Assembly: GCA_002698945.1 (NCBI GenBank)
Contig: NZZV01000145.1
Location: forward strand, 1 to 32,315
Length of the DNA stretch: 32,315 bases
From: Acidimicrobiaceae bacterium
GTDB taxonomy: Bacteria; Actinomycetota; Acidimicrobiia; Acidimicrobiales; Ilumatobacteraceae
Direction of reading: 5' to 3'
In this document: in pieces, positions 1,209 through 6,874 of the stretch
Position numbering within the stretch: the first letter of the stretch is position 1
How the letters are laid out: the number at the start of each line of letters is the position of its first letter
Notes under the pieces: generated by a model
Database searches by the model: none
Told to the model about the DNA's origin: nothing
Seen by the model: the letters and a program-made list of their open reading frames with translations, nothing else
Translations under genes and position numbers: made by a program

Positions 1209-2348
1209 TCAGCGGAGCCTCGTCAAGCCACGGAACCGGACCGGACGTTCGGCGGCCTCCTCGTCGTAATGGGCGCCCCACCCCGCGATGCGGGCGACGG
1301 CGAACAGGGGTGCGGTGTGCGGGAGCCCGCCCGCGTGCAGCAAGGCACCGAGTGCGAGGTCGACATTGGGCAAGTGCGCCAGGCGCCGGCCCGCCTCCGC
1401 GACCACGCCGTCGACGGCGTCCGTCGTCGGGCCCGCGCCCGGGACGGCTCGGATCGCATCGAGCAACGGCGCGAACCGCGGATCACCGCGGCGGTAGACG
1501 GAGTGCCCGAAGCCCGGCAGCATCCGACCGGCGTCGAGGTAGGAGGCCACGGTGGCGGACGCTCCGTCTGACTCGGCCCGAGCGATCAACTCGGCGGTCT
1601 CCGCGCTCGCGCCGCTGTGGAGCGGCCCGCCGACCGCCGCCAGCCCGGCGCCGAGCGCCGAGAACGCCCGGGTGCGCACCGAGCAGGCCACCCGAACGGC
1701 CAGCGTGCTGGTGGCGAGTTCGTGGTCGGCGAGCAACACCAGTGCCCCGTCGATCGCCGCCACCAGTTCGGGTGCCGGACGTCGTACGTACGCCTTCGTG
1801 ACGCGGGCCGCCGTCGACCCGCCTCGCGGACCGCCGAGCACGGTCGGAGCGATCGACAGCAGCGCTCGAGCAGCGTCCGCCCCCGTCCCCACGCCGTCGT
1901 CGTGGGCCGCGAGTGCGACGGCTGACAGGGTGAGCGCGTCGACACCGCTCCCGTCGGCGGCACGGACGACGTCGACGCACCGTTCGAGCCCATCCCGGTC
2001 GACACGCCACGTCGGCTCCGCGTCGGGCAGCGCTCCGGTCCACAGCAGCTCCGCCACGCGCTCGAACGAGGTGGTTCGTGCGAGTTCGGCGACGTCGTGA
2101 CCTCGGTAGCGCAGCCTCGTGTCGTCGAGGAGCGTGATCGACGAGCCGATGCGCACGTCGATCGACGGTCGCTCGACCGGTGGTTTCGAACGGCCGCGGC
2201 CGGCGAGTTCCTCGATCTGGTCGCGCGGGTACAACGAGGTCCGTCCGTCGACGGCCGTCTGGCGGTCGATCAGGCCGCGGCTGACATACGCATACAACGT
2301 CGGTTTGCTGATCCCGAGCAACCGGGACGCCTCGTCCGATCCGATCAT
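1209..2348 (-). CDS. citrate synthase-family protein with N-terminal HTH DNA-binding domain
   Basis: This is a 379-aa protein with two parts. Residues 1-50 form a MerR/excisionase-type helix-turn-helix: SDEASRLLGISKPTLYAYVSRGLI, then a wing ending LYPRDQIEEL. Residues about 70-379 form a citrate synthase domain that condenses acetyl-CoA with oxaloacetate or a related 2-oxoacid. The expected catalytic residues are present: His244 (GGPLHSG), His282 (GFGHSVY) and Asp330 (NVDLALGA). The C-terminus is shorter and lacks the usual LIRPxAxYxGP tail. The start ATG at 2348 has GGAGGT 9 nt upstream. A GTG three codons earlier would abut that ribosome site, so it is less likely. It is divergent from a second citrate synthase across a 96-bp gap holding tandem palindromes. 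A role as an autoregulating enzyme or metabolite-sensing regulator is inference. Confidence 0.88.
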   Translation of the reverse strand: MIGSDEASRLLGISKPTLYAYVSRGLIDRQTAVDGRTSLYPRDQIEELAGRGRSKPPVERPSIDVRIGSSITLLDDTRLRYRGHDVAELARTTSFERVAELLWTGALPDAEPTWRVDRDGLERCVDVVRAADGSGVDALTLSAVALAAHDDGVGTGADAARALLSIAPTVLGGPRGGSTAARVTKAYVRRPAPELVAAIDGALVLLADHELATSTLAVRVACSVRTRAFSALGAGLAAVGGPLHSGASAETAELIARAESDGASATVASYLDAGRMLPGFGHSVYRRGDPRFAPLLDAIRAVPGAGPTTDAVDGVVAEAGRRLAHLPNVDLALGALLHAGGLPHTAPLFAVARIAGWGAHYDEEAAERPVRFRGLTRLR

Positions 2349-2388
2349 CGTCGTCACACCTCCATCGTCCCGCGGGTGATGGACCGCG

Positions 2389-2415
2389 TCAACGTTGATC
2401 GGATCAACGTTGATC
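2389..2415. promoter_or_regulatory. tandem palindromic operator candidate
   Basis: TCAACGTTGATC occurs twice as a direct repeat, at 2389-2400 and 2404-2415, with a 15-bp period. Each copy contains the perfect 10-bp palindrome TCAACGTTGA, and the second extends to a 14-bp palindrome (2402-2415). It lies in the divergent gap between the two citrate synthase genes, 30 bp before one start and 41 bp from the other. It is a natural binding site for the HTH-fused citrate synthase, though that assignment is inferred from position only. Confidence 0.6.
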
Positions 2416-2444
2416 AAGGACTGGAGGAGACGGAGACTCGGGGC

Positions 2445-3611
2445 ATGGACTTGATCGACGTACCAGCAGGACTCAACGGGGTCGCCGTGGCCGACACCAC
2501 GATCGGCACCGTCCTCGGCGACGAGGGCTTCTACCACTACCGCGAGTACGACGCCGCCGCGCTCGCTCGCGCCGCGACGTTCGAAGACGTCTGGCACCTG
2601 CTCGACCAGGGTCGCCTGCCCGACGATATGGAGCGCCGAGCGTTCAGCGCCGAACTCGCGACCCGACGTCGGCTGCCCGGCGACCTCGTCCCGCTGATCG
2701 ACGCCGTGGCGTCGATCGGGGGCGCGCCACTCGCCCGGCTCCGCTCGGTGCTGTCGGCGGCGTCCGGACCGCTCGGTCTCGCTCCGCTGCTCGACCTGTC
2801 GGAGTCGGACCGTCGCGATCAGGCGATCGCCGTCGCCGCCGTCGTTCCCGCGATCCTCGGCGCGCTCCACCGATCCGCGAGCGGACTCCCGATGGTCGAA
2901 CCCGACCCGTCACTCGGACACGCGGCGGCCTACCTGCATCAGGTGACCGGCACGAACCCCGAACCGGCGCACGCCCGAGCACTCGAGCAGTACCTGATCC
3001 TGACGATCGACCACGGCTTCAACGCGTCGACGTTCACCGGCCGAGTGGTCGCCTCGACGGGCGCCGACCTCGCCGACGTCGCGTGCGCTGCCATCGGCGC
3101 GCTCGCCGGTCCGCTGCACGGGGGAGCGCCCAGTCGTGCACTCGACGCACTCGACGCGATCGGCACGCCCGAGCGGGCCCCCGACTGGGTGCGGGGCGAG
3201 GTGGCGGCCGGGCGCCGCATCATGGGGTTCGGTCACGCCGTGTACCGGGCCCCCGACCCTCGATCGGCCCTGCTCCGCGAGGTGGCGGGTGAACTCGGCG
3301 GCGAGTTGGTCGAACGCGCCATCGCGATCGAGACCGAGGTCCTCACGACCCTTGCCGAGTTGAAGCCCGATCGCCCGTTGCCGAGCAATGTCGAGTTCTA
3401 CGCCGGCGTGATCATGGAGACGGTCGGCCTGCCCCGGGAGATGTTCACACCGACCTTCGCCGTCAGCCGGACCGTCGGATGGGTGACCCACGCCCTCGAG
3501 CAGGCGGCGAGCGGCAAGCTCATCCGTCCCGCCGCCCGCTACGTCGGACCCGCGCCACGGCGGGACGCGGCACAGGTCGGTCCGGTCCCCGCCACCGATC
3601 CCGTCCGGTGA
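2445..3611 (+). CDS. citrate synthase (second, divergent paralogue)
   Basis: This 388-aa enzyme is of normal citrate synthase size with no DNA-binding domain. It is expected to make citrate (or methylcitrate) from acetyl-CoA (or propionyl-CoA) and oxaloacetate in the cytosol. His225 (GPLHGGAP) and His264 (MGFGHAVYRAPDPR) match the two catalytic histidines. The position of the catalytic Asp is Glu317 (NVEFYAG). The C-terminus has the usual FTPTFAVSRTVGWVTHALEQ and LIRPAARYVGP segments that bind the carboxylates. ATG at 2445 is chosen because the protein homology begins there; GGAGGAG lies 15 nt upstream, a rather long spacing. The reading frame stays open further upstream, but that part runs through the operator repeats and the neighbouring gene and is not coding. 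Neighbouring pairs of citrate-synthase-like genes occur in other actinobacteria. Confidence 0.9.
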   Translation: MDLIDVPAGLNGVAVADTTIGTVLGDEGFYHYREYDAAALARAATFEDVWHLLDQGRLPDDMERRAFSAELATRRRLPGDLVPLIDAVASIGGAPLARLRSVLSAASGPLGLAPLLDLSESDRRDQAIAVAAVVPAILGALHRSASGLPMVEPDPSLGHAAAYLHQVTGTNPEPAHARALEQYLILTIDHGFNASTFTGRVVASTGADLADVACAAIGALAGPLHGGAPSRALDALDAIGTPERAPDWVRGEVAAGRRIMGFGHAVYRAPDPRSALLREVAGELGGELVERAIAIETEVLTTLAELKPDRPLPSNVEFYAGVIMETVGLPREMFTPTFAVSRTVGWVTHALEQAASGKLIRPAARYVGPAPRRDAAQVGPVPATDPVR

Positions 3612-3684: not shown

Positions 3685-3987
3685 GTGTCCGACCGCCTGA
3701 CCCCCGACGTCGTCGCCAAGGTGGCGCGGCTCGCGCGTCTCGACCTCACGCCCGATGAGCTCGACCGCGCGACCGACCAGTTGAGCGACATGCTCGATCA
3801 CTTCGCCGACATCGACAAGCTCGATCTGCGCGACGTCGAGCCGCTCAACTCGCCCTATCCGCTCGTCAATGTGCTCCGTGACGACGTCGAGCAGCCGACC
3901 CTCGATCGCGACGAAGTCTTGGCAGCGGCGCCGAAGAGCGAGGACGGCCGGTTCTGGGTACCGCCGATCCTCGGTGGTGACTCGTGA
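3685..3987 (+). CDS. gatC: Asp-tRNA(Asn)/Glu-tRNA(Gln) amidotransferase subunit C
   Basis: This 100-aa protein is the normal size for GatC. It is the small wrapping subunit that holds GatA and GatB together in the amidotransferase converting mischarged Glu-tRNA(Gln) and Asp-tRNA(Asn) to Gln-tRNA(Gln) and Asn-tRNA(Asn). Family features are visible: VAKVARLARLDLTPDEL at the N-terminus, a central DMLDHFADIDKLD helix, and the VEPLNSPYPLVNVLRDD and FWVPPIL segments near the end. It starts at GTG 3685 with no leader or ribosome site. Its stop overlaps the gatA start by four bases (GTGA), implying translational coupling in a gatC-gatA-gatB operon. Confidence 0.95.
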   Translation: MSDRLTPDVVAKVARLARLDLTPDELDRATDQLSDMLDHFADIDKLDLRDVEPLNSPYPLVNVLRDDVEQPTLDRDEVLAAAPKSEDGRFWVPPILGGDS

Positions 3988-5411
3988 GCGAGTATCCCAC
4001 CGCCCTGCAGATCGCGGAGGGCGTTCGTTCCGGCGATCTCAAGGCGGTCGACGTCGTCGAGCAGCACCTCACCACCATCGCCGACACCGACGGTGAGATC
4101 CACGCCTTCAACCACGTCATGGCCGACGAGGCACGCGAGCGCGCCGCCGCGGTCGACGCCACCGTCGCTGCAGGTGGCGACCCCGGCCCGATGGCGGGTG
4201 TACCGGTCGCCCTCAAGGACAACATGTGCACCCGCGGCGTGCCGACCACCTGCTCGTCGAAGATCCTCGCCGGGTGGCTCCCGCCGTACGACGCCACCGT
4301 CGTGCAGCGTCTCACCGCCGCCGGTGCCGTGTTCGTCGGCAAGACCAACCTCGACGAGTTCGCCATGGGTTCGTCGACCGAGAACTCGGCGTTCGGCCCG
4401 ACCCGTAACCCGCTCGACACCGAGCGCGTACCCGGCGGCTCGTCCGGCGGCTCGGCCGCCGCCGTCGCGGCCGGCTTCGCTCCCGTCTCGCTCGGTTCCG
4501 ACACCGGCGGCTCGATCCGCCAGCCGGCCGCGCTGTGCGGTGTCGTCGGGGTCAAGCCGACCTACGGCCGGGTGAGTCGCCTCGGTCTGATCGCGTTCGG
4601 CAGCAGCCTCGATCAGATCGGGCCGTTCACCCACACGGTGGCCGACGCTGCCCTCACGCTCGAGACCATCTGCGGGCACGATCCGGGTGACTCGACGTCG
4701 ATCCCCGAACCTGCTCCCGAGTTCTCGGCGGTGCTCGACCGCGGCGTCGACGGTCTCCGCATCGGTCGGATCACCGACCTGCCCGAGGGTGCCGACCCCG
4801 ACGTCGTCGCTCGCACCGACGAGGCGTTCGCCGCCCTCGAATCAGCCGGTGCGACGATCGTCGACGTCGAGGTGCCCGCCTTCACCTACGGACTGACGGC
4901 GTACTACCTGATCGCCCCCGCCGAGGCCTCGTCCAACCTCGCACGCTTCGACGGTGTCCGGTACGGCCTCCGGGTCGACGGCGCCGACGTCGAGGAGATG
5001 ATGCGCAACACCCGCACCGCCGGATTCGGCGACGAGGTCAAGCGCCGCATCCTGCTCGGCACCTACGCCCTGTCGGCCGGCTACTACGACGCGTACTACG
5101 GCAAGGCCCTCAAGATCCGCCGGTTGATGGCCGAGGACTTCGCCGCCGCGTACCAGCAGTGCGATGTCCTGCTCACCCCGTCGTCGCCGAGCGTCGCGTT
5201 CCCGTTCGGATCGAAGACCGACGATCCGTTCGCCATGTACCTGTGCGACACCTACACCATCCCGGCCAATCTGACCGGCGACCCGGCGATGAGCGTGCCG
5301 TTCGGTGACGGCGCCGACGATCTGCCCGTCGGCGTTCAGATCATCGCACCGTCGCTCGGTGAGTCGGTCATGTTGCAGGTCGCCGCCGAGCTCGAAAGGA
5401 GTGCGCCGTGA
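3984..5411 (+). CDS. gatA: Asp-tRNA(Asn)/Glu-tRNA(Gln) amidotransferase subunit A (amidase)
   Basis: This 475-aa protein is the glutaminase subunit, which releases ammonia from glutamine and channels it to GatB. It has the amidase-signature fold. The Ser-cisSer-Lys triad is visible as Lys78 (VALKDNM), Ser153 in PGGSSGGSAAA and Ser177 in GSDTGGSIRQPA, with spacing matching GatA. Near the C-terminus are DVLLTPSSPSVAFPFG and LPVGVQIIAP. The start is the GTG that overlaps the gatC stop, and the end overlaps the gatB start in the same GTGA arrangement. Length and motifs are complete. Confidence 0.97.
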   Translation: MSEYPTALQIAEGVRSGDLKAVDVVEQHLTTIADTDGEIHAFNHVMADEARERAAAVDATVAAGGDPGPMAGVPVALKDNMCTRGVPTTCSSKILAGWLPPYDATVVQRLTAAGAVFVGKTNLDEFAMGSSTENSAFGPTRNPLDTERVPGGSSGGSAAAVAAGFAPVSLGSDTGGSIRQPAALCGVVGVKPTYGRVSRLGLIAFGSSLDQIGPFTHTVADAALTLETICGHDPGDSTSIPEPAPEFSAVLDRGVDGLRIGRITDLPEGADPDVVARTDEAFAALESAGATIVDVEVPAFTYGLTAYYLIAPAEASSNLARFDGVRYGLRVDGADVEEMMRNTRTAGFGDEVKRRILLGTYALSAGYYDAYYGKALKIRRLMAEDFAAAYQQCDVLLTPSSPSVAFPFGSKTDDPFAMYLCDTYTIPANLTGDPAMSVPFGDGADDLPVGVQIIAPSLGESVMLQVAAELERSAP

Positions 5412-6874
5412 GCACCGACACCAACGTCACCAGCGAGACCAGCGCAGCACCGTGGGCCTTCGAGGGCTACGAGATGGTCGTCGGGCTCGAGGTCCACGTC
5501 GAACTGGCCACCCGGACCAAGCTGTTCTCGGGTTCGCCGAACCGGTTCGGTGACGAGCCGAACACGAACATCGATCCGGTCACCCTCGGTCTGCCCGGCG
5601 CGCTGCCGGTGCTCAACCGGCAGGCGGTCGAACTGGCGATGAAGATCGGGCTGGCACTCAACTGCACCGTGCAGCCCTGCACCTTCGCCCGCAAGAACTA
5701 CTTCTACCCCGACATGCCCAAGGCGTATCAGATCAGCCAGTACGAGGATCCGCTCAACGTGGACGGGTGGCTCGACCTGCCCGACGGCACCCGGATCGGC
5801 ATCGAACGCGCCCACATGGAGGAGGACGCCGGCAAGACGGTGCACGCGGGTGCGAGCGGCCGCGTCCACGGTGCCGAGCACTCGTTGATCGACCTCAACC
5901 GAGCCGGCGTCCCCTTGGTCGAGATCGTGTCGCGTCCCGACATGCGTTCGCCCGAGCAAGCCCGGCAGTACGTCTCCGAACTGCGAGCGATCCTGCTCGC
6001 CGTCGGCGCCTCCGACGCCAAGATGGAGGAGGGGTCGATGCGTGTCGACGCCAACGTGTCGGTTCGTCGTCCGGGCGGCGAACTCGGCACGCGCTGCGAG
6101 ATCAAGAACGTCAACTCGATCCGCTCGGTCGGCCGGGCCATCGAGTACGAGGCCAAACGACAGATCGTCCTGATCGAGGGCGGCGAAGCCGTCCGTCAGC
6201 AGACGCGACACTGGGACGAGGGCGACGGCAAGACGCACACGCTGCGCGACAAGGAGGACGCCGACGACTACCGGTACTTCCTCGAGCCCGATCTCGTCCC
6301 GCTGGTCCCGGAGCGTTCCTGGGTCGAGGCCGTGCGCTCGTCATTGCCCGTCCTCCCGTCGGCCCGGCGTGTCGCCCTCGCCGAGGCAGCCGGGTCGGCC
6401 CCCGACGACGAGTCGATCGTCACCATCGTCGATCGCGGACAGGACGCCTACGTGTTCGCCGTCGTGGATGCAGGCGGTGATGTCGGACGCGCCGTCGTGC
6501 ACGTGCAGCAGGCCTTCGCCGAGTTCGATGCCGCGCCCCCCGTTCCTGCTGGCGATCTCGCCGCGCTCACGACGCTGGAGACCGGTGGCCAGTTGACGGC
6601 GACCCAGGCGAAGACCGTGCTCGCCGTCTTGGTCGACCGCGGCGGTGGCGATCCGGCGGCGATCGCGGCCGAGCACGGCTTCGAAGCGATGGACACCTCG
6701 GAGCTCGAGGCGATGGTCGACGAGGCGATCGCCGCCCAACCCGACGCCTGGGAGAAGTTCCGCGCCGGGGAGGGCAAGGCGATGGGCGCCCTCGTCGGAC
6801 ACATCATGAAGGCGAGCAAGGGTCAGGCCGACGGCAAGCTCGTCAGCCAGATCCTGCAACAGCGCAAGGGCTGA
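5408..6874 (+). CDS. gatB: Asp-tRNA(Asn)/Glu-tRNA(Gln) amidotransferase subunit B
   Basis: This 488-aa protein is the kinase/transamidase subunit. It binds the mischarged tRNA, phosphorylates the side-chain carboxylate with ATP and replaces it with ammonia. Recognisable blocks are VVGLEVHVELATRTKLFSG at the N-terminus, NPVTLGLPG-like PVTLGLPGALPVLN, the FARKNYFYPDMPKAYQISQY motif, MEEGSMRVDANVSVR, and RCEIKNVNS followed by KTHTLRDKEDADDYRYF. The last 150 residues form the helical GatB/YqeY tail, which contacts the tRNA. The GTG start overlaps the gatA stop. It ends 12 bp from a convergent kinase gene. Confidence 0.97.
   Translation: MSTDTNVTSETSAAPWAFEGYEMVVGLEVHVELATRTKLFSGSPNRFGDEPNTNIDPVTLGLPGALPVLNRQAVELAMKIGLALNCTVQPCTFARKNYFYPDMPKAYQISQYEDPLNVDGWLDLPDGTRIGIERAHMEEDAGKTVHAGASGRVHGAEHSLIDLNRAGVPLVEIVSRPDMRSPEQARQYVSELRAILLAVGASDAKMEEGSMRVDANVSVRRPGGELGTRCEIKNVNSIRSVGRAIEYEAKRQIVLIEGGEAVRQQTRHWDEGDGKTHTLRDKEDADDYRYFLEPDLVPLVPERSWVEAVRSSLPVLPSARRVALAEAAGSAPDDESIVTIVDRGQDAYVFAVVDAGGDVGRAVVHVQQAFAEFDAAPPVPAGDLAALTTLETGGQLTATQAKTVLAVLVDRGGGDPAAIAAEHGFEAMDTSELEAMVDEAIAAQPDAWEKFRAGEGKAMGALVGHIMKASKGQADGKLVSQILQQRKG

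Follow-up and report, generated by a model that had tools for sequence, protein, structure and literature searches.

The TCA cycle is entered through citrate synthase and, to our knowledge, few regulators sense the substrates of this enzyme directly. In B. subtilis the gene of the LysR regulator CitR is divergent from citA. Promoters controlled by MerR proteins have a stretched spacer of 19-20 bp, with the operator located between the -35 and -10 boxes. The use of an entire enzyme fold as a sensor is exemplified by the MocR/GabR regulators, which combine a GntR-type HTH with an aminotransferase fold (PMC6917764), and citrate-responsive transcription by the LysR regulators CcpC and CcpE (PMC13288900, PMC11315280). 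Among the citrate synthases themselves, Caulobacter CitA is a moonlighting enzyme whose regulatory role does not depend on catalysis, and of the products of the adjacent Caulobacter genes citB and citC, only CitB is able to complement a gltA mutant of E. coli (PMC7083601). In S. coelicolor, the products of SCO5831 and SCO5832 (citA3/citA4) are regarded as putative citrate synthases, and MtrA binds the gap between them at TTGACTTAACTGTCCA (PMC12323332). A description of an HTH-citrate synthase regulator was not found in the open-licence papers searched.

Here we analyze a window of 32,315 nucleotides from an Acidimicrobiaceae bacterium (contig NZZV01000145.1), in which an HTH-citrate synthase fusion gene diverges from a plain citrate synthase gene. 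We consider it likely that the fusion is a transcription regulator with a citrate-synthase-fold sensor, which would bind ATCAAYRTTGAY palindromes over -35 boxes and shut off both genes. The closest kind of system is MocR/GabR, with which the fusion shares an HTH head, a flexible linker and (as proposed here) a whole enzyme-fold dimer as the sensor, with the active site kept; it differs in that the sensor has the PF00285 fold rather than that of a PLP enzyme (aminotransferase, PLP fold type I), the HTH is HTH_17/MerR-like rather than GntR, and the operator is not the same. The functionally nearest system is CitR-citA, where the regulator gene is likewise divergent from the gene of a CitA-type citrate synthase, an enzyme in which Glu takes the place of the catalytic Asp (2c6x); however, CitR is a LysR protein, whereas here it is the regulator itself that has the citrate synthase fold. 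The HTH resembles that of the MerR family (HTH_17, with MerR_1 just under its cut-off), but neither a MerR effector domain nor a coiled coil was found in the fusion, and the operator overlaps the -35 box of promoters with 17-18 bp spacers. CcpC and CcpE share with the fusion the control of transcription by citrate, which is proposed only for the latter and for which its ligand is putative, but their fold is unrelated. Caulobacter CitA is a further citrate synthase protein that acts in regulation, as proposed for the fusion, but an HTH is unreported for it and it acts on the cell cycle rather than on its own promoter (PMC7083601).

The gene pair and its products

The fusion gene most likely occupies positions 1209-2357 of the minus strand. 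The first-pass annotation had described its product as an HTH joined to a citrate synthase domain with the catalytic His/His/Asp intact, and Pfam profiles bear this out: HTH_17 matches residues 5-50 (2199-2336, minus strand, counting from ATG 2348) with 30.9 bits against a cut-off of 27, Citrate_synt (PF00285) matches residues 70-369 (1242-2141, minus strand) with 178 bits, and the three catalytic residues are present. The MerR models stay under their curated cut-offs (MerR_1 21.3 vs 21.6, MerR 20.3 vs 28.2). Residues Y19, Y21, S23 and R24 of the HTH are invariant in an alignment of 32 relatives. In the AlphaFold2 model (mean pLDDT 92.8) the only stretch with pLDDT <50 comprises residues 55-61 (2166-2186, minus strand), which form the flexible linker between the HTH and the citrate synthase domain. 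The translation start had been placed at ATG 2348, which is possible and leaves an intergenic gap of 96 bp to ATG 2445; however, the gene probably starts at GTG 2357, which gives a protein of 382 aa, since relatives begin at that codon and a putative -10 box lies 6 nt upstream of it.

The divergent gene (2445-3611, plus strand) encodes, as had also been claimed, a paralogue without an HTH, in which only Citrate_synt is matched (340 bits). Its best sequence match in the PDB is 2c6x, B. subtilis CitA, in which Glu likewise takes the place of the catalytic Asp. It is the plain paralogue and not the fusion that has an altered catalytic residue, with Glu replacing Asp in all 24 aligned plain enzymes. 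In the phylogenetic tree, the fusions and the plain enzymes form two separate groups with full support, and B. subtilis CitA and the Acidobacteriota partner group with the plain enzymes. Because of this placement, the match to 2c6x and the invariant Glu, we assign the plain partner to the CitA type of citrate synthase. The two proteins of the window share approximately 32% identity, and their origin by a recent duplication is ruled out by the two separate, fully supported groups.

Genes similar to gatC-gatA-gatB directly follow the plain citrate synthase (3685-6874 of the window), with no evident functional link. The genome encodes a fourth Citrate_synt protein of 265 aa (G000:C74, L009:1432-2226), which has its match to the profile confined to the C-terminal part and has the size of a citryl-CoA-lyase. 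Regarding a role in the methylcitrate cycle, the genome contains one PrpD/MmgE homologue, and nothing was found that ties PrpD/MmgE to the gene pair.

The putative sensor domain

According to Foldseek, the best PDB match of the fusion model is the methylcitrate synthase 3hwk (E 7e-16), and the predicted body of the fusion matches citrate and methylcitrate synthases, with TM-scores of mostly 0.64-0.78 against PDB citrate synthases. The seven active-site residues that were checked are invariant or nearly so among 32 fusions with identities down to approximately 30%. By equivalence to pig citrate synthase, the counterparts of His274, Arg329, Asp375, Arg401 and Arg421' are conserved in 32/32 fusions and that of His320 in 30/32. 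Such retention argues that the oxaloacetate/citrate pocket is under selection. Other positions have changed. The Asn of the NAST motif is replaced by Ala in 30 of the 32 fusions, the residues that follow the catalytic Asp are altered, Tyr being replaced by Ala and Ser/Ala by Leu, and the position of pig Arg324, which contacts CoA, retains Arg or Lys in 14/32 (including Arg in the fusion of the window) and has lost it in 18/32. These substitutions suggest that the synthase domain of the fusion serves to bind a ligand rather than as an ordinary catalytic domain, and it is plausible that the fusion senses oxaloacetate, acetyl-CoA or citrate.

The palindromes and their conservation

The gap between the two genes contains two exact copies of TCAACGTTGATC at 2389-2400 and 2404-2415, spaced by 15 bp, the second of which is centered on a 14-bp palindrome. 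As operator copies they were delimited at 2388-2399, reading ATCAACGTTGAC on the minus strand, and, with no strand assigned, at 2403-2414, where ATCAACGTTGAT is a full palindrome. The two repeats with the 10-bp palindrome TCAACGTTGA, reported earlier as lying 15 bp apart in the 96-bp gap, were both recovered as described. The consensus of the palindrome, ATCAAYRTTGAY, can also be written as ATCAAnnTTGAY, with the outward arm TTGAY. In the 4.36-Mb genome the 10-mer TCAACGTTGA has five sites, two of them in this gap, and the 12-mer ATCAAYRTTGAY has three, two in the gap and one within a coding frame. The 12-mer in reverse, used as a control pattern, has no site. A wider regulon in this genome was considered and rejected, as the three sites of TCAACGTTGA outside the gap fall within unrelated genes or at their ends.

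We scored the 250-bp upstream region of the fusion gene in 78 non-duplicate loci by the 12-position match to ATCAAYRTTGAY, with first-order shuffles as the control. The palindrome is exact in 59/78 loci and scores at least 11/12 in 70/78, a figure that is not to be read as a probability as the loci share ancestry, although identities extend down to approximately 30%; in the shuffled regions 11/12 is reached in 0.26% of cases and 12/12 never. Absence of the repeats from close relatives with the gene pair had been named beforehand as a refuting result, and these relatives retain two palindromes. The palindrome also accompanies the fusion gene in plasmid-borne loci of Proteobacteria and in Deinococcus; scores are at least 11/12 in seven of the eight plasmid loci and 10/12 in the remaining one. 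In the 250-bp scan the operator is missing at a few fusion loci (L037, L064, L083, L088 and L090), the first of which has also lost the divergent layout. A locus may have one, two or more copies, and the spacing of a second TTGA arm is variable, which makes the bound form uncertain.

The association is with the fusion. In six genomes with a CBS-citrate synthase orthologue (53-56% identity, CBS pair present) and no fusion at the threshold used, the best upstream score is 7-8/12, i.e. at chance level. In G004 the fusion (C91) and the plain citrate synthase (C52) are located on separate contigs, and the operator is found just upstream of each. An exact scan for the 12-mer in 25 genomes places most matches at the fusion gene, with those elsewhere lying mostly inside coding frames, and in twelve genomes (G006, G152, G089, G353, G389, G415, G464, G544, G354, G535, G164 and G246) it occurs solely beside the fusion gene. 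One apparent counter-example, a plain citrate synthase of G167 without the operator (L074), was discarded, as its contig ends just upstream of the start codon. The comparison shows that the palindrome is not due to chance but is a conserved predicted operator, linked to the fusion protein and not to its partner; this predicted operator would act as a local switch. The earlier suggestion that the paired palindrome is an operator for the fusion is supported by the 70/78 loci and by the way in which the site tracks the fusion.

Overlap with putative promoters

With the outward TTGAYN arm taken as the -35 box, we searched 58 loci for NANNNT at each spacing. In the direction of the partner gene it occurs at 17 bp in 42/58 loci and at 18 bp in 12/58 (54/58 together), compared with 0-9/58 at the 14 other spacings, and in the direction of the fusion the peak is again at 17 bp (17/58). 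In the window, the putative -35 box of the fusion promoter, TTGACG (2387-2392, minus strand), lies inside operator copy 1 and is followed after a 17-bp spacer by the putative -10 box GACGAT (2364-2369, minus strand), with GTG 2357 a further 6 nt away. For the citrate synthase promoter, the putative -35 box TTGATC (2410-2415, plus strand) lies inside operator copy 2, and the putative -10 box GAGACT (2433-2438, plus strand) follows after 17 bp, again 6 nt from the start codon (ATG 2445). Each palindrome, in the window and in near relatives with two of them, thus supplies the putative -35 box of one promoter, which would explain why the gap contains two. The short distance between the -10 box and the start codon suggests that the fusion mRNA is leaderless, and that of the plain citrate synthase probably is as well. 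The -10 hexamers are weak, a strict sigma-70 scan of the gap returned no promoter, and the putative boxes rest on the position-specific comparison.

A model of regulation and its alternatives

From these comparisons we infer the DNA binding, the sense of repression and the ligand of the proposed regulator. Dimers of the fusion would bind the ATCAAYRTTGAY palindromes, each of the two in the window covering the -35 box of one of the back-to-back promoters, and the bound protein would block RNA polymerase, so that both its own gene and that of the CitA-type citrate synthase would be shut off. Repression and autorepression are the likeliest sense because a protein over the -35 box should block RNA polymerase. 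A ligand in the retained active site, most likely oxaloacetate or citrate and possibly acetyl-CoA, could shift the open/closed state of the dimer and thereby loosen or tighten the binding to DNA. Joint control of both genes had been put forward in the first-pass annotation, and the position of the operator fits both; the overlap with the -35 boxes, the wider distribution and the differing partner enzymes were not part of that proposal.

It is possible, though in our opinion unlikely, that the same regulator and operator serve to activate the partner gene when the ligand is present, in the manner of class II activators or of MerR. The HTH is MerR-like and many MerR proteins activate, several weak -10 boxes would suit an activated promoter, and an activator could also bind over the -35 box. 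However, at 17-18 bp the spacer is not stretched as it is in MerR promoters (19-20 bp), the -35 hexamer is part of the palindrome, which is thus not placed between the hexamers, and repression is the better fit for autoregulation through this overlap.

We find it quite doubtful that the fusion is a working citrate or methylcitrate synthase with an incidental HTH and that the palindromes belong to another regulator, even though the catalytic His/His/Asp are retained, databases annotate such proteins as citrate synthases, and MtrA is reported to bind the SCO5831-SCO5832 gap in S. coelicolor (PMC12323332, in the sections cited). The operator tracks the fusion across phyla and partner genes and is lacking where there is no fusion, the NAST Asn is changed in 30/32 fusions and the CoA-contacting Arg/Lys is lost in 18/32, the MtrA site given in the cited sections is unlike this palindrome (PMC12323332), and CitC, of the adjacent citB-citC pair of Caulobacter, which may be an HTH form, fails to complement the E. 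coli gltA mutant (PMC7083601). Least probable is that hetero-oligomers of the two proteins carry the signal, with the enzyme titrating or gating the regulator: citrate synthases are dimers and the divergent pairing is conserved in most of the Acidimicrobiales loci sampled, but the two proteins are only about 32% identical and the fusion persists in genomes in which no plain partner passes the threshold (G128, G213, G178 and G164) or with non-homologous partners, so that the partner enzyme is not generally needed.

Distribution of the fusion and of the plain enzyme

Searches detected the fusion in 26/118 genomes of the order and in 26/200 genomes of the family, as well as in further families across the phylum. 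Within the order, most loci have as the divergent neighbor a plain citrate synthase approximately 47-83% identical to that of the window. One further genus with the pair and the operator is probably Streptomyces, and therefore the divergent pair SCO5831/SCO5832, also annotated as citrate synthases, is probably the same system, although the sections of the report cited here describe it just as enzymes and MtrA targets and leave the HTH and the operator unmentioned (PMC12323332). Caulobacter CitC may likewise be an HTH form.

More broadly, and with somewhat more reserve than for the locus itself, we think there is a good chance that these proteins represent a large unrecognized family of citrate-synthase-fold regulators with a near-invariant ATCAAnnTTGAY site in at least four phyla, whose controlled metabolic gene has been repeatedly swapped, and that some extra "citrate synthases" (one of SCO5831/SCO5832 and perhaps Caulobacter CitC) are regulators rather than enzymes. 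If this is true, many of the "second citrate synthases" annotated in Streptomyces, Burkholderiales, rhizobia and others are in fact transcription factors, and their single short operator lends itself to a ready regulon search and possibly to a genetic sensor for oxaloacetate or citrate. They would also illustrate clearly how an enzyme fold can become a regulator, with the binding site fixed as the targets changed.

In many genomes of the order the plain citrate synthase appears to carry an in-frame N-terminal CBS pair (L012, L013, L020, L024, L026, L028, L030, L032, L033, L068, L070-L073 and L075; Pfam-confirmed in L024, L071 and L075), with or without an HTH fusion next door, and this pair may place the enzyme under adenylate control. 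In the genus g107 (L050-L053, L082) the fusion and the operator are kept and a close plain citrate synthase was not found; a gatC-like frame lies near the fusion in L082, and gatC also adjoins the gene pair in the window.

Exchange of the divergent partner

The operator is kept with divergent neighbors of five kinds, namely citrate synthase (e.g. A. fabrum C58 and Niveispirillum), HMGL-like or homocitrate-synthase-like proteins (L081, L094, L107, Nonomuraea and Deinococcus), CoA-transferase III (Ewingella and Novosphingobium), DUF2332 (G004 and Pseudoroseomonas) and 2-hydroxyacid dehydrogenase (Comamonas and Cupriavidus). Since CoA-transferase III and DUF2332 are divergent partners elsewhere, their genes in G128 and G178, respectively, look like possible trans targets, in one genome each.

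The HMGL-like partners (homocitrate/isopropylmalate-synthase-like; L081:174-1475, L094:2622-3896, L107:2742-4052, L148:1864-2907 and L151:1703-2917) take the place of citrate synthase under the operator and could be Re-type citrate synthases. Genes of CoA-transferase family III are found under the operator at L112:1501, L152:1474-2856 and L038:3539-4912, divergent in Ewingella and Novosphingobium and unlinked in G128. Finally, the operator is found at genes for DUF2332, a domain of unknown function, in three unrelated genomes (L014:345-1433, L142:1559-2467 and L149:1848-2903), in one of them unlinked to the regulator, and the operator upstream of these genes offers a handle on the function of this domain.
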